Shown here piece by piece: positions 1,042 through 18,526 of a stretch of 21,712 bases of DNA (position 1 is the stretch's first letter; each line of letters begins with the position of its first letter). Source of the DNA: a virus; IMG/VR virus record IMGVR_UViG_3300046484_000039, positions 1 through 21,712 of that record; one strand, written 5' to 3'. The notes beneath the pieces are model-generated. The model had not been told where the DNA came from, ran no database searches, and saw only the letters and a list, made by a program, of their open reading frames with translations. Position numbers and translations under genes: made by a program.

Positions 1042-1587
1042 TTAAGGTTTTAATCTTATGCACAACATATAGTCTGTTCCCCATCCTATTGTGCTAATCA
1101 TTTCATAATTATATTTTTTAAAATCTTCTTCTGTCCAATCAGAAAGGTGAGTTTCTGATTTATTTCCATATACTCCTTCTTGTGGTCTAGCTGGAGACGG
1201 TGTTGCGATTATTACCCAAGCATTACAGTGAGATAACATTTTTTCAATCAACTTATGACCATCTTCCTTGGTGAGGTGTTCTATCATATCACCACAATAA
1301 ACTACATCATATTTGTCCAATCCAGCTATCTCCGTTAGTGCATCACCTACGTATATAGTATCGTAGAAATCCCAAGCTAGGTTTCGATATGGTTCAAAAA
1401 TCTCAATTCCATCCAACTTTAAACCCCAATCTTCCTTTTGCAATCTTCCACAACGGACATCCGTAAAAACTTGGAATATAGAACCCATCATTCCCCAACC
1501 CATTCCAACATCTAGGATAGACTGCGGCTTGATACATAGTATTTCTTCTATGATAGCGGATAGGTGAGCCCCTCTGTTTATTGGCAT
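1042..1587 (-). CDS. Class I SAM-dependent methyltransferase
   Basis: 181 residues. The S-adenosylmethionine motif I is clear near residues 25-31 (DVGMGWG). An acidic end of strand 2 follows (DGIEIFEPY), and the post-motif region VVYCGDMIEHL near residues 95-105 matches Rossmann-fold methyltransferases of the Methyltransf_11/23 type. The substrate cannot be read from the sequence. It sits between a methyltransferase-deacetylase fusion (4 bp upstream) and the fibre-like gene (1 bp downstream), so a sugar or virion-protein substrate is a reasonable inference. The ATG at 1585-1587 follows an AAAACT leader with no Shine-Dalgarno sequence. Length is usual for a minimal small-molecule or glycan methyltransferase. 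Confidence 0.8.
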   Translation of the reverse strand: MPINRGAHLSAIIEEILCIKPQSILDVGMGWGMMGSIFQVFTDVRCGRLQKEDWGLKLDGIEIFEPYRNLAWDFYDTIYVGDALTEIAGLDKYDVVYCGDMIEHLTKEDGHKLIEKMLSHCNAWVIIATPSPARPQEGVYGNKSETHLSDWTEEDFKKYNYEMISTIGWGTDYMLCIRLKP

Positions 1588-1591
1588 AGTT

Positions 1592-2716
1592 TTATTGGTA
1601 CCGATTAGGCAGATACCTATCTAACGGAGCTTCTGTTATAAAATAAAAATTAGTATTATCTCCAAAATTGCATTTAGTGGTGGAGAGTTCTTCTATCCCA
1701 TTCATATTACAAGGCCAAGTATGTCCGTGAACCTCCATTAAATGTCCCGTAGTATATCTCTTTCCCCCCAGTTCTTCCCACCTGTCATGTCCGAGATGGT
1801 CGCATATTATATAGCCTCTCTCTATTAAAACCTTATAAGTTTCTTGATTCAACCCCCAACCTGGTGGACGAAAAGTCTTTTTAAAACAATTCATCTCTTC
1901 TGCCATATCCAGGTACTTATTGGCTTCTTCCTCCGTCCAATGGTTAGACTCCTGTGCCCTGCCATGCTCTTTCGTGTCGTGAAACCATCCGTGGACACCC
2001 AGTTCAATCCAGTCGTATTGCTGAAGTTTTTGGATGTGCTCTGAAGAACACTTTGAGGGGATACAAAATAAAGTAACTTTTAGTTTAGGAAAACGTTCTT
2101 TGAGTTTAAGGAGTTCCGGCAGAGCTGAGGTTTCATCGCACTCATCGTCGAGCTCGAATACTACTTCATCTAAATGTTTTCCTATTATCACAAACTCTTC
2201 ATCATTCACTTTGCCAAAACTTACGTTAGTGGATAGATGACGAGCTACATCGTTTAGTTCCAGGTAATTTATCCTCCATTCGAAAGTATCATCTTCAAAA
2301 TCTATACGGTTGCTGTCGTGTTCTATAAACTCTTTTCTTAAATTAATAATAACTTTTTTATTAGCGATTCTAAATGCGTCCTGAATAACTTTTTTCCAAT
2401 CCTCACAATTCTCAAGGAAATGCCTCATCACTACCACATCGTAACTATTGTCTTCGAAACTCTCTAAATCACGTACATCCCCAATTATCCATGTTTTATC
2501 AGGATATTTATCTCTAGCTGACTTAATGGCTGTTTCTGAATAATCTAATCCTGTATATTTATTATTTAAAAGACTAGAGAGTGCTCCTTGACCACATCCT
2601 AAATCAAGAACCGAGTCATTGGGACTAATATTTTTTACTATTTCCGCATAAGAAGGTTCATTCGGAATAGAATAGTATTCTGGACGTCCTTGGTAAATTT
2701 TCTCCCAATAGTTCAT
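1592..2716 (-). CDS. Methyltransferase fused to NodB-type polysaccharide deacetylase
   Basis: 374 residues in two domains. Residues 1 to about 180 form a class I methyltransferase with motif I VLDLGCGQG (36-44), the acidic residue in GLDYS (56-60), and the later region SYDVVVMRHFLEN. Residues about 185-374 look like a NodB-type carbohydrate esterase. A di-aspartate sits in FELDDEC (190-191), a metal-binding HxxxH is H242 and H246 (HGWFH), an RPP-G motif lies at 283-286, and a late HGHTW is at 330-334. These match the family motifs in order, although the first is divergent from the usual TFDDG. The predicted pairing is methyl transfer and N- or O-deacetylation on one sugar. The start codon overlaps the upstream stop (TAATG). 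The assignment of both domains is firm; substrate and order of reactions are not known. Confidence 0.75.
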   Translation of the reverse strand: MNYWEKIYQGRPEYYSIPNEPSYAEIVKNISPNDSVLDLGCGQGALSSLLNNKYTGLDYSETAIKSARDKYPDKTWIIGDVRDLESFEDNSYDVVVMRHFLENCEDWKKVIQDAFRIANKKVIINLRKEFIEHDSNRIDFEDDTFEWRINYLELNDVARHLSTNVSFGKVNDEEFVIIGKHLDEVVFELDDECDETSALPELLKLKERFPKLKVTLFCIPSKCSSEHIQKLQQYDWIELGVHGWFHDTKEHGRAQESNHWTEEEANKYLDMAEEMNCFKKTFRPPGWGLNQETYKVLIERGYIICDHLGHDRWEELGGKRYTTGHLMEVHGHTWPCNMNGIEELSTTKCNFGDNTNFYFITEAPLDRYLPNRYQ

Positions 2717-3300
2717 TATATAGTTTTAGCAATTATAGTATAGGTATAGCTTCCCTTTGGGTCAGTCTTTACGATTTCAAATCCGTTTTTAGTCAACAGA
2801 TTACACATCTCATCCATCGATTCAAAGGTAGTATAGTGTCCGAATCTGAGATTTTCTACCGCTTCAGCAACGCTTTGAATTGGAAAATTGATATAAATGT
2901 ACCCGTCCAGAATACGCCTTATTTCCTTTATTCCCGCTTCAGGTTCATTCAAATGCTCGATAACCTGAGTAGCAATGGCTGAGTGAAAATGTCCATCCTC
3001 CCATTCTGTCCGCTTCTGAATATCCCCTTTAACCACGTTTCGGCCTAAACTCTTGGCGTGGTCAGCTATATCAGTGACTTCTATTCCAGTAGCGTCGGGA
3101 TAACCTCGACTAGCTAACTCTTCTAGTAACAGTCCGTTCCGTGTCCCGATGTCTAAAATCGGTTCTTTTAGGTATTCTCCGAACTCGTCAAACATCTCCA
3201 AGTGCCACGGCGAGAGAGGATATTCGTGAGTATTAGAGGTGTGGCGTTGTTCTTGTTGCCATTTAAATTCTGCGTCGTCTTTAGGTTGTAAGGAGAACAT
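2716..3300 (-). CDS. Class I SAM-dependent methyltransferase
   Basis: 194 residues. SAM motif I is near residues 49-56 (LDIGTRNG), the strand-2 acidic residue is in TGIEVTD, and the region after motif II reads AIATQVIEHLNEPE, typical of Methyltransf_11-like enzymes. The C-terminal half carries the usual beta-hairpin (GYIYINFPIQ, then a terminal TYTIIAKTI strand). The gene overlaps the end of the upstream glycosyltransferase by 20 bp and its stop touches the next start, so translation is probably coupled. It is distinct in sequence from the other two methyltransferases of the block rather than an obvious tandem copy. The substrate is unknown; a sugar or lipid-sugar is inferred from context. 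Confidence 0.75.
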   Translation of the reverse strand: MFSLQPKDDAEFKWQQEQRHTSNTHEYPLSPWHLEMFDEFGEYLKEPILDIGTRNGLLLEELASRGYPDATGIEVTDIADHAKSLGRNVVKGDIQKRTEWEDGHFHSAIATQVIEHLNEPEAGIKEIRRILDGYIYINFPIQSVAEAVENLRFGHYTTFESMDEMCNLLTKNGFEIVKTDPKGSYTYTIIAKTI

Positions 3301-4159
3301 TTATTTTTTCCATCTCGGAATCCAAAGAATACTTGGAAACGAATTCTCGATATTTCTTGGAATCGTAGGATGAGATTAAAATATTATAAAATCCAGTAAA
3401 ATCTTTATAAATTAATTCTTTAGGCCAGAGTTCTTCTGCTCCATAGAAGGAGTTGATAATAGGTTTAATGCCTTTTGCCATCGCTTCGCCGACAATGAGA
3501 GAGAAACTTTCAGCGTATGAGGGTTGCCAGAGGTAATCAATACTGTCGAACCATTCGTCAATATTAGAAACTTCCCCACTTTCTTCAATTGGTAAATCTT
3601 GGACATAGTGTTTATAATATTCGCCTTCCCTGCCAGCGAATCGGTTAAGTCCTACCATTTTTAATTTAAACCACGGTTCTTTTTCCAATAACTCCCTGAA
3701 ATAATGGAACATCGTGAGGATTCCTTTGGTCTGGACGATATTTCCGGCATAACCAATAGTGAATCCCTTACGCCTTTCCCTGAATGTTAATTTATCCAAA
3801 TCTATACCATTATGAATGACTGACTGTTCCACCCCTTGGACATTGCAGAGTCTTTTTAAATGTTCTGAAACAAATATCAAATGAGAAACGCAACTCCAGT
3901 CTATCTGCTGGTGAAATCCCATGTAATATTCGACGGCATGAAGCCGTGCGATAACTTTTTTCTTTTTCAGTTCTTCTTTGTCGTCTTGGCTGGCTGAAAT
4001 CAGGTTATTATCACAGAAGTCAAACCAATAAATATCAGCATCGGTTATAGTCCAGTTATTTAATAATTGGCACTCGTGACCTTCGAGTGCTAATCGGTCA
4101 ATAATGGGTTGAATAAAACGATGGTTTCCTGGGTCAGCACTAAAAAATGTTATTTTAAT
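3281..4159 (-). CDS. GT-B (GT4-like) glycosyltransferase with probable ATT start
   Basis: The first ATG in this frame is at 3922, but the open frame continues upstream with coding-like sequence up to a stop near 4166. From the ATT at 4157-4159 it reads (I/M)KITFFSADPGNHRF and later DADIYWFDFCDNN, a typical GT-B N-terminal domain. No ATG, GTG or TTG occurs in this 79-residue extension, so the start is probably ATT, inside the last codons of the upstream gene. The full protein is then about 292 residues. The C-terminal donor-binding domain has an HNGID segment, IGYAGNIVQTKG, and the GT4 E-x7-E motif (E217 and E225, in AESFSLIVGEAM). It probably transfers a nucleotide-sugar residue. The alternative is an N-terminally broken gene expressed from 3922. 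Confidence 0.7.
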   Translation of the reverse strand: MKITFFSADPGNHRFIQPIIDRLALEGHECQLLNNWTITDADIYWFDFCDNNLISASQDDKEELKKKKVIARLHAVEYYMGFHQQIDWSCVSHLIFVSEHLKRLCNVQGVEQSVIHNGIDLDKLTFRERRKGFTIGYAGNIVQTKGILTMFHYFRELLEKEPWFKLKMVGLNRFAGREGEYYKHYVQDLPIEESGEVSNIDEWFDSIDYLWQPSYAESFSLIVGEAMAKGIKPIINSFYGAEELWPKELIYKDFTGFYNILISSYDSKKYREFVSKYSLDSEMEKINVLLTT

Positions 4160-5043
4160 ATTTGTTCAAAAACTTCCTTGAACTTGTCTGCACATACCTT
4201 GTCGTTAAGTTCAGTTAAGACCCGTTCTCTCACTCTCAGTCTTAACTCTGGAAGATTATCTTTAAATTTTTTAATCGCTTCTTCAAATAATAAATCATCT
4301 ACTGTCTCAACATCATCCATGTTCCACATAGTGTCTTCGCTGTCATTTAAGATTATCACTTGAGCCACTTCTTTCGCTCCTCCGTGATTTGTGACAATAC
4401 AGGGGAGGCCGTAGGCTAGGGCTTCGAGAACAGTGTTTGGCATACCTTCCTTTCGAGAGAGATGGATATATCCGTGGCAATCATGATAATAAGAAAAATC
4501 ATCAACATTTCCTTCCGCAACTATCAGCTCAATACCGTACTTCTCACAGAGTCTCTTGGTTTCTTCCAGCCTTTTAACGGGTCTTGGAATACAGGTGGTT
4601 GCTAGTTTTAACCTACCATTAAATTCGGGATAGGTATCTGGGAGCTTTGGTTCATCGGCTGGGATAATGACGTACTCGTCCGTTCGTTCTTCATTAAAAA
4701 CCTTTTGAGTAATAGCCTTACAATACTTGGAAATATGAACCACAGCGGCTGACTCTTCGTATAGTTCTCTTATTGGTTCGTTGGCTTCCAAAAGATTAAT
4801 CCCCTTCTTCCATTCAGTTCCAATTGAATACATTACGGTCGGCTTGTCGTGGGGAATTTCATCCCAAGTGTGGCTAAATCCCTTAACAAGAATAATATCG
4901 TATGGTTCCGTATAAATTCCTTTATCTTTATGCCAACGAATTAAATTCATATCCGACTTTAAAAATCCTTTCTGAAATCTAAAAAATTCTTTATCTGAGA
5001 CCATGTGGCCATCCTGAAATGTATAAAATAAAATGTTCAGCAT
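4150..5043 (-). CDS. GT-B (GT4-like) glycosyltransferase
   Basis: 297 residues. The N-terminus (LNILFYTFQDGH) is a GT-B first strand. The C-terminal domain holds LATTCIPRPVKRLEET, the usual domain-2 start with basic residues for the donor diphosphate, and then EGMPNTVLEALAYGLP with the GT4 E-x7-E pair (E199 and E207). It is shorter than most GT4 enzymes (350-400 residues), with a compact acceptor domain. It is preceded by an 86-bp gap with an extended -10 promoter-like sequence. Its stop codon overlaps the proposed start of the next glycosyltransferase, suggesting coupled translation. Donor and acceptor are not predictable from sequence alone. Confidence 0.8.
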   Translation of the reverse strand: MLNILFYTFQDGHMVSDKEFFRFQKGFLKSDMNLIRWHKDKGIYTEPYDIILVKGFSHTWDEIPHDKPTVMYSIGTEWKKGINLLEANEPIRELYEESAAVVHISKYCKAITQKVFNEERTDEYVIIPADEPKLPDTYPEFNGRLKLATTCIPRPVKRLEETKRLCEKYGIELIVAEGNVDDFSYYHDCHGYIHLSRKEGMPNTVLEALAYGLPCIVTNHGGAKEVAQVIILNDSEDTMWNMDDVETVDDLLFEEAIKKFKDNLPELRLRVRERVLTELNDKVCADKFKEVFEQILK

Positions 5044-5104
5044 AAGTTTAGTAGTCTATTTTCCTATGTTCTATTGTGCATTTTGAACCTTTTTTCATAT
5101 CTAT

Positions 5105-5113
5105 ATTATAACA
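5105..5113 (-). promoter_or_regulatory. Possible extended -10 promoter inside the glycan block
   Basis: On the minus strand the sequence reads TGTTATAAT, an extended -10 element (TG-n-TATAAT), in the only gap of any size between the glycosyltransferase genes (5044-5129). No convincing -35 lies 16-18 bp upstream. If used it would start transcripts close to 5098, where a 16-codon frame begins MKKGSK and ends at 5048. That frame is too short to call as a gene. The promoter could give separate control of the genes from 5043 leftward. Confidence 0.35.
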
Positions 5114-5129
5114 CAATAAAATTTTATTC

Positions 5130-5915
5130 TCATCCGAAATATTCTCCCGAAATCCCACCTACCTTAGCGTATTCGTAAGCCCAGTTTTCTGTTCTCACGT
5201 ACGCAATGTAGGGGAGTAAAGGAAGTTTTTTAGATTTATTCTCACGGGTCAGGAGCCAAAATAGTGCGTGGTCTTGTCCCCAAGGATTACCGACAAATTT
5301 ATCTTCTTTGTTATATCTTGGATATTCTCCTGGTAAATTTCTTTCTGCCCAGTATTCCTTAACCCTTTCTCCAAACCAATCAGCAAAAGCATAAACATCG
5401 TCAATCTCTGGCAGGTAAGCCTTTTCATTAAGCAGTTCCTTCTTGAAACAGAACGACCCTGCTCCCACCATACCGCAGTCGAAATAGGCCATCCCAAGAC
5501 CATCAGGACTTTCGTCAATATCTTTAGCCTCCTTAACCGTTGAGCCTCCCAGATAAGCTAGGATATGACCGTAATGGAAAATGCTGTAATCAGGGAATGC
5601 TTCAATGCAGTGTTTTAGTTGTTCCAGATATCCAAATATAACTTCATCGTCAGAATCCAGAAAGCATATCCAGTCTCCCGTAGCTGCTCTCATTCCGTCA
5701 TTCCAGCTAATAATTCTTTCCCGACAGATATCGTGTGTTATGACTTTGATTCTTGGGTCGGTATATTTTTTCAGGACTTCCTGTGTGTTGTCTGGACTGC
5801 CATCGTCAATGATAATCAACTCCCAATCTGAATAGGTCTGGTCAATGACAGATTGAATAGCAAGCGGAATGATATTTTCTCTGTTCCATGTGGGACAGAT
5901 TATTGAAAACTTCAT
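5130..5915 (-). CDS. Family 2 (GT-A) glycosyltransferase
   Basis: 261 residues. The N-terminus MKFSIICPTWNRENII is the classic GT2 opening. It is followed by the nucleotide-binding LIIIDDGSPDN (DDGS at 37-40) and the metal-binding CFLDSDDE (DSDD at 87-90). The acceptor half includes ADWFGERVKEYW and a WGQDHALFWLL segment, where the aspartate could serve as catalytic base. No membrane segment is seen, so it is probably cytosolic. The ATG overlaps the upstream gene's stop by 4 bp (ATGA). A family-2 enzyme beside three GT-B enzymes suggests stepwise assembly of a short oligosaccharide. Sugar identity is unknown. Confidence 0.85.
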   Translation of the reverse strand: MKFSIICPTWNRENIIPLAIQSVIDQTYSDWELIIIDDGSPDNTQEVLKKYTDPRIKVITHDICRERIISWNDGMRAATGDWICFLDSDDEVIFGYLEQLKHCIEAFPDYSIFHYGHILAYLGGSTVKEAKDIDESPDGLGMAYFDCGMVGAGSFCFKKELLNEKAYLPEIDDVYAFADWFGERVKEYWAERNLPGEYPRYNKEDKFVGNPWGQDHALFWLLTRENKSKKLPLLPYIAYVRTENWAYEYAKVGGISGEYFG

Positions 5916-7252
5916 ACGGGTTTTGTTCCGAATACCGGATTTCCTAATTTCTCAAAATATAGAAGTGGTTCTAGCTCCTTCTTAAACACGGTCTGAAGAC
6001 TTCTATTTTGTCGGATAAACCGCCATTGGTTGATTACAGGATTTCCTTCCACGAAGTACAAAATCTTATTCGCCAAATTGGTGAAGTGAACGTCTTCGTC
6101 TTGGATGTTTAAGTCCGTCCTTCCGTTCTCACCATCCAGAATATTAACAGTGCTTCCGAAAGGTTCAAACAAACAATTCTTGCTTCCATAGATATCCCGC
6201 ATTACCGGAAGATGATAATTCAGAACGCAGAAATTCTTGGTTGCCATACTCTCCTGACAAACTAATGAATAGGTTTCCGTGTTGGATGGGTGCATTGCAA
6301 AGTCAGAAATCTTTTTCATGTTCATTATGAACTGTCGTGGGACATTATAATGAGTTTCTGGTTTCCATTCTGAAATGAAAATCAGTTCCTTTTCCGTCAG
6401 TCCCCACTGTCTGCCAATCTGCTTGAGCTCTTCTTTGTAAATCAATTTGTCTCCTCCAGTAGAGTGGAAATCAAATAGAATCATTCTGACACTTCTCCCT
6501 TGCTTCTTAATCGCCCCCATCGTCTTGATGTTGAACTCAGGTTGTTTTCCCCTATCCAATCGGCAAGGATAAACTGAAATTACATCAGCACTTAGAATGT
6601 CAAATTCTTTTACCAGGTCTCTAGTAAGTCTCCACGCCTTCAATCCCTTCTCTGAAAAATCTTCTTCGTCTCCGCAAAGGAGAGAGATAAAATCCGAAGG
6701 ATGATGGACGCATTTTACTTCGTCCAGTTCCATCCCGAAATTGAGAGCTACTCTCTTCCTGTCCCAGTCATTCGGATAACAGATAAACGCATTGGGAAAT
6801 TTAGGAGCGATTAACTTGGAAACTTCTTCTATGTTGCAATTCAATTGTGGTTGAGTGGGTGAGTGAAGCCAGTGCAACCATCTTAAATCGGTTTCATTAG
6901 CCAGCCTCCTGCACGCTACATTGTGGATGAGATGGGCTGGTTGGAGCAAAATATCGTGGGTCAACACAACATCATAACCTTCTAATTCAGTTTTTAAAGA
7001 ACTGTACATCGCATCAACCTCTGATTGCCATTGGTCATTCAGTTGCCCCTCATTACTTCTTTGAACTTGCGGAGTGTATCCGTAAGACACTTTGTCCCAG
7101 TATCCACCAGGACTCTTAAACGCTTGGTCTACTATGAGTTTTATCTCATAACCGTTGTCCACTAACATTCTAATTTGGTCTTCTACGCAATGAACGAGAG
7201 AGTATCCTTGGTCGAAATCGTAGAAGGTCGTCAGAATCACAATTTTCTTCAT
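5912..7252 (-). CDS. Long GT-B (GT4-like) glycosyltransferase
   Basis: 446 residues. The N-terminus KKIVILTTFYDFDQGYSLVH is a GT-B first strand and loop. The second domain begins near DVISVYPCRLDRGKQPEF (about 223-240), where R231 and K236 are placed to bind the donor diphosphate. It contains the E-x7-E motif ETYSLVCQE (E326 and E334) followed by SMATKNFCVLN. It is the first gene of the glycan block, after a 94-bp gap with a long hairpin, and ends in an ATGA overlap with the GT2 gene. The leader before its ATG is A-rich (AAAAAAACTACT) with no Shine-Dalgarno. Function beyond retaining-type glycosyl transfer is inference. Confidence 0.75.
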   Translation of the reverse strand: MKKIVILTTFYDFDQGYSLVHCVEDQIRMLVDNGYEIKLIVDQAFKSPGGYWDKVSYGYTPQVQRSNEGQLNDQWQSEVDAMYSSLKTELEGYDVVLTHDILLQPAHLIHNVACRRLANETDLRWLHWLHSPTQPQLNCNIEEVSKLIAPKFPNAFICYPNDWDRKRVALNFGMELDEVKCVHHPSDFISLLCGDEEDFSEKGLKAWRLTRDLVKEFDILSADVISVYPCRLDRGKQPEFNIKTMGAIKKQGRSVRMILFDFHSTGGDKLIYKEELKQIGRQWGLTEKELIFISEWKPETHYNVPRQFIMNMKKISDFAMHPSNTETYSLVCQESMATKNFCVLNYHLPVMRDIYGSKNCLFEPFGSTVNILDGENGRTDLNIQDEDVHFTNLANKILYFVEGNPVINQWRFIRQNRSLQTVFKKELEPLLYFEKLGNPVFGTKPV

Positions 7253-9573: not shown

Positions 9574-10056
9574 TTAAGTTGTAGTACTAGAACTTGATGA
9601 GCTCGAAGATGAACTTGAAGATGAGCTGCTGCTCGAAGAGCTAGTGCTTTTTGAACTACTGGACGATGAACTGGAAGTGCTAACACTCGAAGAACTTGAT
9701 GATGAAGAAGATGTGGAGATTGAGCTGCTAGAAGAACTAGTACTAACAGAACTGGATGAACTAGAAGTACTAATACTAGAAGATGAACTAGAAGAACTGG
9801 AACTAGAACTCGTAGAAGTTGTTACCTGTGCTATTACAGAAAAAGAACATGAGGTGATAGAACCAGTGTTGGTATAAGTTCTGCCATCTTTATCCATCGT
9901 CTGTAGAATACATCCCACAGCATAGCCCTTAACTCCAGAAGGAATTTTGGCTACCTTGCATTTACACCAAATAGTGTTTCCAACTTCATCCACCAATATA
10001 TCATCAACATCATCAGGCGAGTATCCAACAAAATCTGTTCCTGCTTGATAAACCAT
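9574..10056 (-). CDS. Virion-like protein with an 80-residue serine-rich tail
   Basis: 160 residues. Residues 1-78 are a small folded-looking domain (VGYSPDDVDDILV, WCKCKVAKIPSGVKGYAVG, TYTNTGSITSCSF). Residues 79-160 are almost only Ser with some Thr, arranged as degenerate repeats of about nine residues, (I/V/K)STSSSSSS. The DNA of this tail uses mixed Ser codons (AGC, AGT, TCA, TCT, TCG), so it is kept as a protein feature and is not a simple DNA microsatellite. The N-terminal domain is clearly related to the 74-residue protein encoded just upstream. In a genome with four glycosyltransferases the tail is a candidate O-glycan acceptor, but this is inference. It may equally be a flexible linker. 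Confidence 0.7.
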   Translation of the reverse strand: MVYQAGTDFVGYSPDDVDDILVDEVGNTIWCKCKVAKIPSGVKGYAVGCILQTMDKDGRTYTNTGSITSCSFSVIAQVTTSTSSSSSSSSSSSSISTSSSSSSVSTSSSSSSISTSSSSSSSSSVSTSSSSSSSSKSTSSSSSSSSSSSSSSSSSSSTTT

Positions 10057-14295: not shown

Positions 14296-16299
14296 TTATT
14301 GTCCCATCATGCTTTGTAAATTAAGTTGATTGCCAGGTGCCATAGCTGCTGCTGGCTGAGGCATGCCACCTTGTCCTCCTCCGCCTTTTTGCATCTGTGC
14401 CATTGCCATTGCACGAGGGTCGATTCCTCCATTGTTCTCCTGTTTAGTTTGTTCGAATTCTTCTGCATCAATATCGTATGTATCTTCAACTTTTTTAATT
14501 AAAGCTGAAATATTAAACGGTGCAATTTGTGCTAGTCCAATTCTCCAATTAGCAAATTCCATAATCTCTGCTCGGTCTAATAGTTGATTGTTCTCATAGC
14601 TAGAACGCTTAACAACTTGAATCTTATAATTAAAATCAAAGAACACATCAACATTTAAAGCCAAAGCTTCTACTGGTGTTCCCTTTAATTCTCCTTTCGC
14701 CTCAATCTTAGAAAGTTGGTCAGCCATTTTCTTTCTGCCATTCGTATCCAGTGAATCATTGTCAGTCAGTTTCAGAATACGTGTTCCAATTTTTCCATCT
14801 GACAATTTTGTTTTTGGTAGAACAACGTCCCTGTAAAAAAACTTTTCAATATCTTTACCTTTCTTATCTGTAATGGTTTCAATTTTTGGAATAGAATAAA
14901 ATTGTAATATGTGATTTAAGCGGAGTATTGTTCTGTCTCTTTCAAAATCTTCCAAATATTCAGAGGTGAATCCCATCTTACTTTCGGCTTCCTGTTGCTT
15001 TAGCATAGCCTGACGCATAGTAACCTTTCCTCCCTGAGGAGAAGCTGCACCATACCCGCCCTCCGAACCTGCATTGTCTTTTATAAAACTTAATGCTGAC
15101 TGGAGCATTGATTCCTCGCCTTGGTTTACGCCAGGTAGAGTTGCAAATTTCCAGTTATTGATGTCTCCAACTTTTCTAATCTTGTTGGGTTCCAAAACCG
15201 TATCTTCTACTAAGTCATCTAGGTCGGAAGAAAGTCCAAAGGGTTGCAGAGAACCATAGGTCTTATCAACCATCATGTTCCAGAGAGTGTTAATCAGGTC
15301 TTGGTCTCCCATTATCTTCTGAACCAATGATGAGCCCCAGAAGAAATTTACATTGAAAGGTTCATGCCAACCCTTGGCGAACGGATAATTACCGTCTTTA
15401 AATGGAATAACTCCACGATACATCGGAATTCCGTTGACCAAAATTATGTGTTTGTTTTTTCTCTTGTTGTAATATCTTAAAACCTCTACCTGATTGCTGT
15501 TGAGTTCTGTTACCTGAAGATTAGAATAAAAAGTCTCCACTTCAGAATTTATAGAGTAGTTTCCTTTAACTACATACTTCCAATTGGAATAATGACCAAG
15601 TTCTCTTTCCGCCTCATCATACATCATAGTCTTTTTCCAAATAAGAAATGGCTGTTTCTGGACATCAGGCTGGTATGGATTGGAAATATAAAAATCCTGC
15701 AAAAAAACATTCTCCTGATAACAGTTATCAAATAATGTTCTGGTTTCTTTTTTAGTTTTAATCTCTCCAGTTTCAGCGTCAAAATCTACCGGTACTTCTG
15801 TTTCCTGTTCGTATTTTAAATAACCTTCATATTTTATAACTGTGCCCTTGATAGCTGCTTCCAATACTGACTCAGTATAACGTGCATCAGCATTTTCTTC
15901 GTTGTTGGAATAGTCATTCAAATCCTCTAGAGCCCTTGCCATTTGGGCAGACTCAGTTCCAGATTCTTTGTTGACTGCTATAATTTTTGGTTCAGGCATT
16001 TTAAGACCAACCTTAGATACAAACCCAATAACAATATTGCGAGTTATATTAAGGAACATGTTGCTCCGGTCTTGGTTCATAAAAGGAGCCATCGGCAACC
16101 AGCCGTTCCAACGCTTCTCCCAGTCATCAATACAGTCAGTTAAATTCCTGCCATTAAACTGGTTGTATGATTTCTGCATTACATTCCTAACTGAGATATA
16201 GTCTTTAGCCACTTGGTCAACGTCTTTCTGCTCATCCCATGTAGGTTTGAATGTTAGGGTCTGCTCTTCTAGAGCTGTCTTTTTAGTGGATTCTCCCAT
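14296..16299 (-). CDS. Portal protein
   Basis: 667 residues. Directly after the large terminase, with a 17-bp overlap, it has the size and composition of a portal that forms the dodecameric DNA-entry vertex. Visible elements include an N-terminal helical region (DVDQVAKDYISVRNVMQ), a helix-loop core (RSNMFLNITRNIVIGFVSKV), the long middle region GDQDLINTLWNMMVDKTYGS, a stem/crown-like helix (RQAMLKQQEAESKMGFTSEY), and a Gly/Gln/Met-rich C-terminal tail (QMQKGGGGQGGMPQPAAAM). It is long for a portal (often 450-600), similar to short-tailed-phage portals with a C-terminal extension. The assignment rests on gene order and this general architecture. Confidence 0.82.
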   Translation of the reverse strand: MGESTKKTALEEQTLTFKPTWDEQKDVDQVAKDYISVRNVMQKSYNQFNGRNLTDCIDDWEKRWNGWLPMAPFMNQDRSNMFLNITRNIVIGFVSKVGLKMPEPKIIAVNKESGTESAQMARALEDLNDYSNNEENADARYTESVLEAAIKGTVIKYEGYLKYEQETEVPVDFDAETGEIKTKKETRTLFDNCYQENVFLQDFYISNPYQPDVQKQPFLIWKKTMMYDEAERELGHYSNWKYVVKGNYSINSEVETFYSNLQVTELNSNQVEVLRYYNKRKNKHIILVNGIPMYRGVIPFKDGNYPFAKGWHEPFNVNFFWGSSLVQKIMGDQDLINTLWNMMVDKTYGSLQPFGLSSDLDDLVEDTVLEPNKIRKVGDINNWKFATLPGVNQGEESMLQSALSFIKDNAGSEGGYGAASPQGGKVTMRQAMLKQQEAESKMGFTSEYLEDFERDRTILRLNHILQFYSIPKIETITDKKGKDIEKFFYRDVVLPKTKLSDGKIGTRILKLTDNDSLDTNGRKKMADQLSKIEAKGELKGTPVEALALNVDVFFDFNYKIQVVKRSSYENNQLLDRAEIMEFANWRIGLAQIAPFNISALIKKVEDTYDIDAEEFEQTKQENNGGIDPRAMAMAQMQKGGGGQGGMPQPAAAMAPGNQLNLQSMMGQ

Positions 16300-17749
16300 A
16301 GTTTCTTAAATAAACACTGCCGGACAGAGGTCTGTCTCCTTCTTTTCTCCGGTAATAATCAAATTGTTTTAAAGTTTCTTTATCTTGATTAACGTGCATA
16401 GAGGCTGGAGATACTATTTGATTCTGGTAAGCTAGTGCGTCAATTAAATCGTCATGCACTCCACGTGGGAACCTTATAAGTTCATCTATGATGTCGGTCT
16501 GAGATTTTAGGAAATAAATCGCTCCAACTTCATAGCGTGGAATCAGAGATTCTATTCTTCGGTTTTTAGCCTGTCCAGCATCTTTAAGTTCTGTAATAGA
16601 GAAAAACGAATTTCTATTTCGCATCTCATTAATCAGGTTTGGTTTTAGCGTGTACTCAAACGCTTTCTGTTCAATACCAATTTTGTAAGGTTTGAAATAA
16701 TTTTTCAAGTCAAATATTTTTTGGATGAGTTCTCCCTCTGTCCCTTTAAATCTCTCGCTCCTAATGTACCAATTGTTTTCTCTGTCTACCCTGTTAATTA
16801 CTATGCCTGTAAAGTCTGCTGTCTTTTCAGCACTGTAAGCTCGGTCAATCGTGATGTAGCATTTTAGGTTCTTACCATTCAGTTCTTCTTCCTCGTAATA
16901 TTTTAAATTCTCAATTTTAAATTTTCGGTGTTCATCTGATACAGGGTCGTTCTGATACTCCTGATAAAAAAGGTATCCCTGTCCCTGCTCGATATAATTT
17001 TTTTTAATAATATCCAGCTCGGTTAAATTCAGGTGTTCCGGCCACAACGCTTTTCCGTTATCTATGGCCTTGTAAGTCTTCTTTTTAAACTCTGTGTACT
17101 TGTCCTTGTCTAGAACTTTAGCCATTAGAGAATCGTAGTGCAAAATCGTTCCAATCATCACCAGCCTTCCTTCTTTGGAAAGACTTGGAATTAAGGCTCC
17201 GTTGAACCAGCGTTCCAACTTCTCTCTACGTTCCTTACTAGATACCAAATCATCGTTCTCCAAATCGTCTACGACTATCAGGTCAGGTCTGGATTCACGA
17301 TACTTTAAACCCCTAACCTTCATTCCAGCACCTAGGCACTTAACTAACGTGCTTCCTGCAATTATCTCATCTTCCGCCCAATGTCCGGAGGACAACTTCC
17401 CATAAAAGGTTCTGAGCTTATCATTTTCTTCAAACTCAGCCTTGAGAGCCTCTAGGAAGAGTGTAGCTTGAGAATAGGTATCTGACACCAGTAGGACGAA
17501 CTTTGTCTTGCCGTAAACAATCTCATGGGCTAGGAAGACCAAGTCTGTGATGGTGCTCTTAGCATGACCTCTCGGAGCTCCTATGGCAATCCTTTCTGCT
17601 CCAGATTCGTAAATCTTATAAATCTCTTGGTGAAAATCCGGTGTAGCTAGCTTTAGATGATGAGGAAAAAAGAATTTGCCAAACAGTTCTACATCTTCTT
17701 CAAATATCTTTTTCAGGGTTCCAATCTTCTGTTCGTTTGTCAGATTCAT
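16283..17749 (-). CDS. terL: Terminase large subunit
   Basis: 488 residues with all expected motifs. ATPase: Walker A GAPRGHAKST (57-66), Walker B DLIVVDDLEND (156-166) with the catalytic acidic residue, and the coupling motif LVMIGTILHYDS near 196-206. Nuclease: ITIDRAYSAEKTADF with D301, IGIEQKAF with E359, and GVHDDLIDALAY with D432/D433, which together make the RNase H-type metal site. It translocates DNA into the head through the portal and cuts concatemers. It overlaps the portal start by 17 bp and is itself overlapped by 50 bp by the zinc-ribbon gene upstream. The ATG follows an AAACT leader. Confidence 0.95.
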   Translation of the reverse strand: MNLTNEQKIGTLKKIFEEDVELFGKFFFPHHLKLATPDFHQEIYKIYESGAERIAIGAPRGHAKSTITDLVFLAHEIVYGKTKFVLLVSDTYSQATLFLEALKAEFEENDKLRTFYGKLSSGHWAEDEIIAGSTLVKCLGAGMKVRGLKYRESRPDLIVVDDLENDDLVSSKERREKLERWFNGALIPSLSKEGRLVMIGTILHYDSLMAKVLDKDKYTEFKKKTYKAIDNGKALWPEHLNLTELDIIKKNYIEQGQGYLFYQEYQNDPVSDEHRKFKIENLKYYEEEELNGKNLKCYITIDRAYSAEKTADFTGIVINRVDRENNWYIRSERFKGTEGELIQKIFDLKNYFKPYKIGIEQKAFEYTLKPNLINEMRNRNSFFSITELKDAGQAKNRRIESLIPRYEVGAIYFLKSQTDIIDELIRFPRGVHDDLIDALAYQNQIVSPASMHVNQDKETLKQFDYYRRKEGDRPLSGSVYLRNYGRIH

Positions 17750-17930
17750 AGTTTAGTTCGATTATTGGTTCCTCTGTTACGCTAACTGGTTCCTCTTGCA
17801 CGCTAAGGGGTTTCTCTTGCACGCTAACTTTTTTATGGTATCTGAATAAACTCCTGCATGTAGAGCCACAAAATAGCTTTGTATCTCTATCTTTATAAAA
17901 AATCTTGTTACAATATTTGCAGTTTGGCAT
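17700..17930 (-). CDS. Small zinc-ribbon protein with SV-x-E-x-P repeat tail
   Basis: 76 residues from the ATG at 17928-17930. A GTG at 17940-17942 would add four residues but lies inside a DNA repeat, so I prefer the ATG. The N-terminus is a zinc ribbon (CKYCNKIF, then LFCGSTC), close in style to the N-terminal zinc module of the HNH endonuclease encoded at 10381-10959. The second half contains three tandem heptads, SVQEKPL, SVQEEPV and SVTEEPI, then an acidic end. The heptads are written by copies of the 11-bp DNA repeat found both inside and upstream of the gene. The gene overlaps the terminase start by 50 bp. Role unknown; a packaging-linked DNA-binding or regulatory protein is a guess. 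Confidence 0.6.
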   Translation of the reverse strand: MPNCKYCNKIFYKDRDTKLFCGSTCRSLFRYHKKVSVQEKPLSVQEEPVSVTEEPIIELNYESDKRTEDWNPEKDI

Positions 17931-17989
17931 AGATATTTGCACGCTAACTTAATACTTGCACGCTAATTCTATTTTTAGTTGCACGCTAA
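17775..17989. repeat. Cluster of 11-bp direct repeats TTGCACGCTAA
   Basis: Five perfect copies at 17796-17806, 17817-17827, 17937-17947, 17956-17966 and 17979-17989, plus a degenerate one at 17775-17785, all in one orientation (TTAGCGTGCAA on the minus strand). They form two clusters with spacings of 19-23 bp, about two helical turns. Flanks are also shared: GGGG follows two copies and CTT follows two others. One cluster is inside the zinc-ribbon gene, the other just upstream of it, between small and large terminase genes. Phased direct repeats in this place suggest a protein-binding array such as a packaging (pac) site or iterons. Confidence 0.85.
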
Positions 17990-18145
17990 GGGGATTGTGT
18001 GTCGCAAAATAAGATAACAATATTAAACAGTAGAGGGGGGTGCCCGTGTGTGAATAGCCCTTTTTCTAAGCCATAACTAGGCTATATATTGTCGCACAAT
18101 CTATATTGGGCGACATAGAACAAAGGACAACACTACCCTACCTGC
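17990..18145. other. Non-coding spacer between terminase small and zinc-ribbon genes
   Basis: About 155 bp with no convincing gene. It contains a direct repeat TGTCGCAAAAT (18000-18010) and TGTCGCACAAT (18090-18100), an inverted repeat ATAGCC (18054-18059) with GGCTAT (18080-18085), an inverted repeat TGTCGC (18090-18095) with GCGACA (18110-18115), and a G-run near 18034. With the adjacent 11-bp repeats this makes a dense site region next to the terminase genes, a natural candidate for the cos or pac site. Confidence 0.45.
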
Positions 18146-18526
18146 TTAATGGCTCTTATAAGCCCTTATTATCTCTATAAAGTCCACATCAGGTATATCT
18201 ATAGTAGTATGTTGCTCATTATCTGCCTTGTATAGACCCTTAACCTTGCATGCTATAGCTAGTTCTTTGCTTCTATCTTGCTTTTTTACGCTTATATCTT
18301 CTGCTAATGCACTTAATATCATATTATCCGTTAAACCTACTTCATCACATAATTGCTTGAATCCCTTGCTTTCCGTCACTAATTGAGGTCTGTTTGCTGT
18401 TGTTATGCTGTACTCACTCTTTAGCAAAGCATCTTTTAAAGTACCTCCATTTAAGATATTATCAGATATGTTTTTTACTGCTAGTTTTTGTTTTGCTGTT
18501 GGCTTTGTATTGTAATCCTTTGGCAT
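18146..18526 (-). CDS. terS: Terminase small subunit
   Basis: 126 residues. The N-terminus KPTAKQKLAVKNISDNILNG followed by TLKDALLKSEYSITTANRPQ is a helix-turn-helix-type start as in small terminase subunits that recognise packaging DNA. The middle (ESKGFKQLCDEVGLTDNMIL) resembles the common TerS pattern SxxFxxLLDxxGLTD. The C-terminus (DIPDVDFIEIIRAYKSH) would contact the large subunit. It lies upstream of terL in the same operon, separated by the repeat region and zinc-ribbon gene. The frame has a stop only seven codons upstream of this ATG, which supports the start. Confidence 0.8.
   Translation of the reverse strand: MPKDYNTKPTAKQKLAVKNISDNILNGGTLKDALLKSEYSITTANRPQLVTESKGFKQLCDEVGLTDNMILSALAEDISVKKQDRSKELAIACKVKGLYKADNEQHTTIDIPDVDFIEIIRAYKSH

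Follow-up and report, generated by a model that had tools for sequence, protein, structure and literature searches.

The question raised by this locus is why an 11-bp word should recur, in one orientation, in both coding and untranslated DNA between the two terminase genes of a phage, and which protein would read it. The window, i.e., the whole stretch of 21,712 nucleotides analyzed here (IMG/VR record IMGVR_UViG_3300046484_000039), carries these genes on the minus strand in the order TerS-like (18526-18146), an untranslated gap containing three words, the gene of a small zinc-ribbon (ZR) protein (17930-17700) and TerL (17749-16283), with the ZR gene overlapping the start of terL by 50 bp. Elsewhere in the window, a run of ORFs resembling methyltransferases and glycosyltransferases was observed 3' of the structural genes (1042-7252), and a protein with a long Ser/Thr low-complexity tail adjoins the structural genes (9574-10056). 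The features of the array and its surroundings are as follows:

16283..17749, minus strand: terL, 3' of the array; phrog_38 terminase large subunit, E 7.6e-93.
17700..17930, minus strand: ZR gene, 76 aa; CxxC...CxxxC zinc ribbon, then a low-confidence tail.
17775..17785, minus strand: site 6, TTAGCGTAACA; coding, with SVT as its reading; exact match to the AAC-class word of relatives, among them L006 (TerL 78% identical).
17796..17806, minus strand: site 5, TTAGCGTGCAA; coding, reads SVQ.
17817..17827, minus strand: site 4, TTAGCGTGCAA; coding, reads SVQ.
17829..17864, minus strand: codons of residues 23-34 (STCRSLFRYHKK), the predicted recognition helix; helical in the AF2 model, with covariation between the word and the residues that follow the last Cys.
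17937..17947, minus strand: site 3, TTAGCGTGCAA; non-coding, immediately 5' of the ZR start codon.
17956..17966, minus strand: site 2, TTAGCGTGCAA; non-coding, exact copy.
17979..17989, minus strand: site 1, TTAGCGTGCAA; non-coding, exact copy.
18035..18040, plus strand: G-tract GGGGGG, in the interval from terS to the array; may be a second part of the module.
18146..18526, minus strand: TerS-like gene, 126 aa; 5' of the array on the gene strand; 35% identity over 83 aa to the TerS of locus L067.

On the plus strand, TTGCACGCTAA, which is TTAGCGTGCAA on the minus (gene) strand, was found in five exact copies starting at 17796, 17817, 17937, 17956 and 17979, all in one orientation and with start-to-start spacings of 21, then 120, then 19 and 23. 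Only 0.01 copies were expected by chance, five copies were obtained in none of 100 shuffles, and no further copy was detected outside the terS-terL interval in the rest of the 21.7-kb record, even when one mismatch was allowed. The five perfect copies in the same orientation between terS and terL, described in an earlier note on this DNA, were thus confirmed, as was the division into a coding and an untranslated cluster, with three words inside the ZR tail codons and three 5' of the ZR ATG, in the terS-ZR gap. The same note had counted a sixth, degenerate copy. This copy is indeed present at 17775-17785, but it is not degenerate: TGTTACGCTAA is TTAGCGTAACA on the gene strand, the exact word of other loci (e.g., L062, L067 and L126), and it is better called a site of another predicted specificity class. 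The repeated flanks that had been pointed out (GGGG and CTT) are real, but they occur in two copies each, which is near chance level. Finally, the description of the repeat as phased did not hold for the family of related loci described below, in which 83 spacings from 27 loci revealed no ~10.5-bp period (R=0.16, p ~0.1); the sole period was 3, arising from the coding copies. Helical phasing as a family property was therefore rejected.

The 76-aa ZR protein was examined by alignment, profile searches and structure prediction. Residues C4, C7, R15, C21 and C25 were invariant in an alignment with 19 relatives, and the AF2 model showed a pLDDT of 93 at residues 1-30, falling in the tail, with a helix at residues 23-34. 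Small ZR proteins belonged to no named family in Pfam, NCBIfam or PHROGs, the best matches being PHROGs of unknown function or HNH PHROGs, along with sub-threshold Pfam and NCBIfam matches. For the window ZR, the match to phrog_6975 covered residues 3-40 only, not the full length (E 0.0055), and a tblastn search against isolated phages returned no match. No HNH nuclease motif was present in the 76-aa protein, as PHROG HNH profiles covered just the ribbon and the adjoining tail, and neither Pfam, PHROG nor NCBIfam detected a replication initiator domain. In comparison with FCS/MYM/TRASH-type fingers, the ligands were invariant and the predicted helix spanned residues 23-34, although PDB profile and fold matches were weak (E >0.5). 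With regard to the TerS-like protein of the window, no direct PHROG match and no gathering-level Pfam match was obtained; its L067 relative matched the phrog_641 terminase small subunit (1.1e-8).

Among the relatives of the window TerL retrieved for comparison, L006 was the closest (78% identical). Directly 5' of its terL, three TAGCGTAAC words lie within the codons of a ZR-type tail, which reads NSVT..DSVT..DSVT, and the contig starts inside that gene. A more distant relative (L207, TerL 60% identical to that of the window) carries a ZR and five words. By contrast, 15 further TerL relatives whose upstream DNA extended over at least 500 bp had neither ZR nor array, indicating that the two are present or absent as a pair in a single terminase family. 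The array is remote from both ends of the window contig, and a fixed cos end at the array is thus unsupported.

Word scans together with profile searches yielded around 30 distinct related loci, each combining a ZR (CxxC...[FY]C[SGN]xxC[RK]) with an array of TTAGCG plus variable bases. Their anatomy was shared, in that the small ZR gene adjoins terL, TerS is usually found on the other side, and the arrays sit in the codons of the ZR C-terminal tail and/or in adjacent non-coding DNA. TerS and/or TerL adjoined nearly all of these loci, as expected from the position of a packaging site. TerL was confirmed by PHROG in nine of the ten loci tested, with at least four profile types (phrog_979, phrog_2, phrog_3717 and phrog_675), while that of L043 was Terminase_6; TerS was confirmed by PHROG in L067, L072, L113, L134, L148 and L149. 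This variety of TerL profile types suggests that the array moves between unrelated terminases. In L167, TerL lies upstream of ZR, and in L161, a ZR-RecA locus, no TerL was found nearby. In L144, L175, L159, L185, L191 and L116, ZR is fused to an ATPase resembling RecA/UvsX; the fusion gene precedes a 100-aa gene, after which comes TerL, e.g.:

L144, 4001-4945: ZR-RecA fusion.
L175, 3965-4951: ZR-RecA fusion.
L159, 3702-4676: ZR-RecA fusion.

In some of the ZR-RecA loci, convergent arrays occupy the non-coding DNA that separates a TerS-like gene from the fusion gene. Word scans alone were rejected as evidence, since many matches to three copies of AGCGTAAC were unrelated repetitive coding sequences, such as SVTPT tail-fibre-like ones. 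Two further loci were recorded separately. In L058 (7971-8044), SVT words (AGCGTAAC) lie in the coding sequence of a prophage protein resembling a replication protein, and in the Streptococcus satellite phage Javan395 (L321, 3001-3429) a small protein has a like zinc ribbon (E 8e-3), with no array seen near its gene.

The earlier note had proposed that the DNA site, and not the peptide, is the selected feature, a claim that gained strong support from fixed codons, frame changes, reversed arrays and non-coding copies. Firstly, among ZR tails that a protein profile alone had detected, the Ser codon of SV was AGC in 36 of 38 cases, compared to 4 of 29 other tail serines and to 9.7% in long ORFs, and the wobble base preceding this codon was T in 37 of 38. 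Secondly, the word TTAGCGGGAC of L332 is read in two frames of one protein, giving LAG at three places and VSGT at two, and SVT is encoded by TTAGCGTTACA in L362 and by TTAGCGTAACA in the AAC class. Further, the AAC word is reversed in L072, where it reads VTL and is present in three coding and two upstream non-coding copies, and the arrays of L116, L144, L159 and L175 are in non-coding DNA. Judging from these patterns, selection almost certainly acts on the words at the DNA level; the coding sequence appears so constrained by the DNA site that the DNA is retained even where the repeat is read in a different frame.

The bases that follow the TTAGCG core differed between loci along with the helix of the ZR protein:

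Helix CR[VM]xxxR: word bases TAAC.
Helices CRVKAAQ and CRVKWNN: word bases TAAA.
Helix CRKLAF: word bases TTC[CT].
Helix CRNLAF: word bases TTGC.
Helix CRMKYNY: word bases TTGA.
Helix CRSLFRYHK (window and L043): word bases TGCA.
Helix CKQKNK: word bases TGTC.
Helix CKKQYLR: word bases GGAC.

In Mantel tests with 27 ZRs, which controlled the relatedness of the loci just in part, through pairwise contrasts, the helix correlated with the word (r 0.59, p 0.0002), compared to r 0.15 (p 0.10) for the rest of the ZR. As the helix codons of the LAF classes contain the word (TTA GCG TTC = LAF) and would inflate the covariation, the test was recomputed with LAF helices removed and duplicates collapsed; here, 20 ZRs gave r 0.58 (p 0.0004). 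In these LAF classes (L256, 338-748; L148, L157, L333 and L334), the recognition helix is encoded by its own predicted target word. At the level of single residues, C was the fourth base after TAGCG in 15 of 15 cases with Arg at helix position 6 vs. one of five without it (Fisher p 0.001). The apparent recognition code, in which Arg at position 6 goes with C and either Gln or Asn with A, would represent a compact, naturally occurring code for zinc ribbons.

The similarity of the terminases did not predict the word. L144 and L159, with TerL 81% and TerS-like proteins 66% identical, have TAAA and TTTC, respectively; L322 and L337 (TerL 83%, TerS-like 65% identical) have TTCT and TGTC; and the window and L006 (TerL 78% identical) have TGCA and TAAC. 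Similar terminases with words that differ along with the helix were also found in L069 and L157. Conversely, the window and L043 have word and helix in common and TerL proteins of different types. Covariation of the repeat with either TerS or the ZR protein across relatives, the check that the earlier note had called for, was thus seen with the ZR helix and not with TerS or TerL. Of the two mechanisms that had been offered, an array for the ZR protein agreed with this outcome, while TerS as the binder was contradicted by the pairs of similar terminases with different words. Since the word tracks the helix and differs between near-identical terminases, the ZR protein is the most likely binder, and we infer with considerable confidence that it binds the words; a packaging site bound by TerS would be expected to follow TerS, and these words appear to follow the helix.

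Several lines of evidence bear on what such binding would be for. In actinophages, the same zinc ribbon forms the N-terminus of gp1, whose gene is 55-110 bp away from the end of the genome and is followed by that of TerL (gp2); this was observed in the mycobacteriophage and Gordonia phage genomes of Charlie, Kevin1, Redi, Butters, Sbash and Eyre. Several IMG contigs of the ZR-gp1 kind begin 50-100 bp upstream of the gp1 gene, as would be the case if assembly ended at the physical termini. TAGCG/CGCTA was present within 60 bp upstream in 13 of 30 actinophage-type loci, with 3.2 expected (e.g., GTCACGCTAAG and GTAGCGCTAC). The TAGCG core was absent near the ends of the cluster N phages Charlie and Kevin1, with AGCAAAC repeats in its place; these lie no more than 90 bp from the end of the genome, immediately 5' of the gp1 zinc ribbon, three times in Charlie (L142, 44-90) and twice in Kevin1 (L143). 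The gp1 C-terminal domain was not recognized as TerS by PHROG, Pfam or fold search, and its assignment as TerS was not retained as more than conjecture.

In the ZR-RecA phages L159, L175 and L144, the words converge on a spacer from both sides, and G-tracts lie inside this spacer or close to it. G/C runs of at least 6 were found within -500 to +400 of ZR in 14 of 30 loci, compared to 4.3 expected from local shuffles, and in 8% of windows elsewhere in the ZR loci. G-rich tracts near arrays (e.g., GGGGGGTGGGG and GGGGGGAGGG) were noted in the window, L144, L159, L175, L334, L337, L165, L091 and others; the G-tract is a possible cleavage or processing element. Gene position, gp1 at the actinophage genome end, convergent arrays and the G-tract favor a pac- or cosB-like role, and the array probably serves packaging initiation.

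On balance, we lean towards an explanation of the whole locus in which the repeats would be ZR binding sites that mark the genome for the start of packaging by terminase. The ZR helix (STCRSLFRYHKK in the window) would read TTAGCG plus about four further bases, TGCA in the window phage; the array-bound protein would mark the phage genome between terS and terL, and the terminase would start packaging at the array so marked. The result would be a pac- or cosB-like site whose sequence specificity resides in a separate zinc-ribbon protein instead of TerS. With sites partly inside the ZR tail codons, protein and sites would travel jointly between phages, and specificity would change by joint alteration of helix and sites. 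While the selection at the DNA level, the covariation, the co-occurrence of ZR and array and their place beside the terminase genes are seen in the sequences themselves, physical binding and the packaging step are what we infer from them. In several pac phages, purified TerS binds the pac site weakly or non-specifically (PMC9611059, PMC4737164). For a broad group of phages, ZR plus array, if this reading is true, would offer an answer to the long-standing question of how a terminase recognizes the genome of its own phage. The chances appear about even that these loci represent a widespread, undescribed module, in which a stand-alone ZR would confer packaging specificity via a helix-to-base code, with sites written into the ZR gene in whichever frame or orientation, and re-targetable as a unit. 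No prior description of such a module was found in the literature searched, where coverage of subscription papers was limited and an earlier description is possible.

The strongest rival, although unlikely, is an origin of replication or recombination, with ZR as an origin-binding or recombination-loading factor and the words as iterons. It can draw on the origin of direct repeats inside the initiator gene 38 of SPP1 (PMC6316719), on the fusions of ZR with RecA-like ATPases seen in several loci whose arrays are non-coding, and on arrays of the 11-mer beside a plasmid-type replication initiator (RPA) in Nitrospirota contigs. In these MAG contigs, the TTAGCGTGCAA arrays (L046, 4510-4631; L052, 768-885) lie just 3' of RPA-type genes, in repeated ACCGGACTTAGCGTGCAAAA units; the RPA call was made by PF10134 in L046 and by similarity in L052. 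However, neither contig gave a match in the scan for ZRs with at least three words. Further, the arrays otherwise go with TerS and TerL of unrelated terminases and not with replication genes, and the actinophage ZR is gp1 at the genome end. Where iterons lie beside or inside an initiator gene, the ZR gene encodes no initiator domain and has terminase genes as its neighbors.

Autoregulation, in which ZR would bind its own gene and the words 5' of its start and thereby tune terminase expression, was judged a step less likely again. Small zinc ribbons can act as repressors, and in the window one word lies immediately 5' of the ATG, with others in the tail codons. Nevertheless, three to ten sites, often in tail codons only, would be an unusual operator, as would the convergent arrays of L159 and L175, which lie at a distance of 200-600 bp, and the position at the actinophage genome end and the enrichment of G-tracts would be left unexplained.

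More improbable still is a self-targeting or exclusion element, e.g., an HNH-like homing remnant whose zinc ribbon targets related phages. The actinophage ZR module does superpose on the ribbons of phage HNH endonucleases (0.6-1.1 A over ~34 residues), but the 76-aa protein has no nuclease domain, and the sites are kept and clustered in the phage's own packaging region. A packaging site bound by TerS, with ZR incidental, has very little probability left. It would account for an array between terS and terL, and the pac site of SPP1 has direct repeats near the TerS gene (PMC4737164), yet the words differ within near-identical TerS/TerL pairs and follow the ZR helix, and TerL relatives without ZR also lack the array. 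A peptide repeat or simple repeat expansion without DNA function, as the low-complexity look of the tandem SV-x tails and the many unrelated repetitive proteins matched by three copies of AGCGTAAC might suggest, was rejected as having next to no chance, given the non-coding copies, frame changes, reversed arrays and fixed codons with variable linkers.

The putative ZR-marked packaging site can be set against several known systems. In the cosB site of lambda, short repeated R sites between the cleavage site and the terminase genes are bound by the TerS protein gpNu1; in contrast to the ZR arrays, no zinc ribbon is involved, and the sites are not in the binder's tail codons in variable frames. 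The gp1 proteins of Charlie and its relatives (phrog_6975, unknown function) share the N-terminal zinc ribbon and the position beside TerL and the genome end, but have an extra helical domain (AF2 pLDDT 88.5) and usually one site or another word, not an array. HNH endonuclease ribbons, NinG and FCS/MYM/TRASH-type fingers likewise display a CxxC...FCxxxC ribbon followed by a helix, whereas ZR lacks the HNH nuclease and its PDB matches were weak (E >0.5). Iteron origins (SPP1 gp38, lambda O and RPA plasmids) have site arrays inside or beside the binder's gene, as here, although the ZR arrays are located with terminase genes and ZR has no initiator domain. The pac sites of SPP1 and SF6 (TerS gp1, direct repeats boxA/B/C) also feature repeat arrays beside or inside packaging genes and overlapping coding sequence (PMC4737164, PMC6316719), and in SPP1 the arrangement is pacL-pacC-pacR, with binding regions flanking the cleavage region (PMC4737164), which the convergent ZR-RecA arrays around a spacer with G-tracts resemble. 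In SPP1 and SF6, binding has been ascribed to TerS, an HTH ring whose DNA-binding domain has little sequence specificity, whereas in the loci described here the word tracks a separate zinc-ribbon protein.
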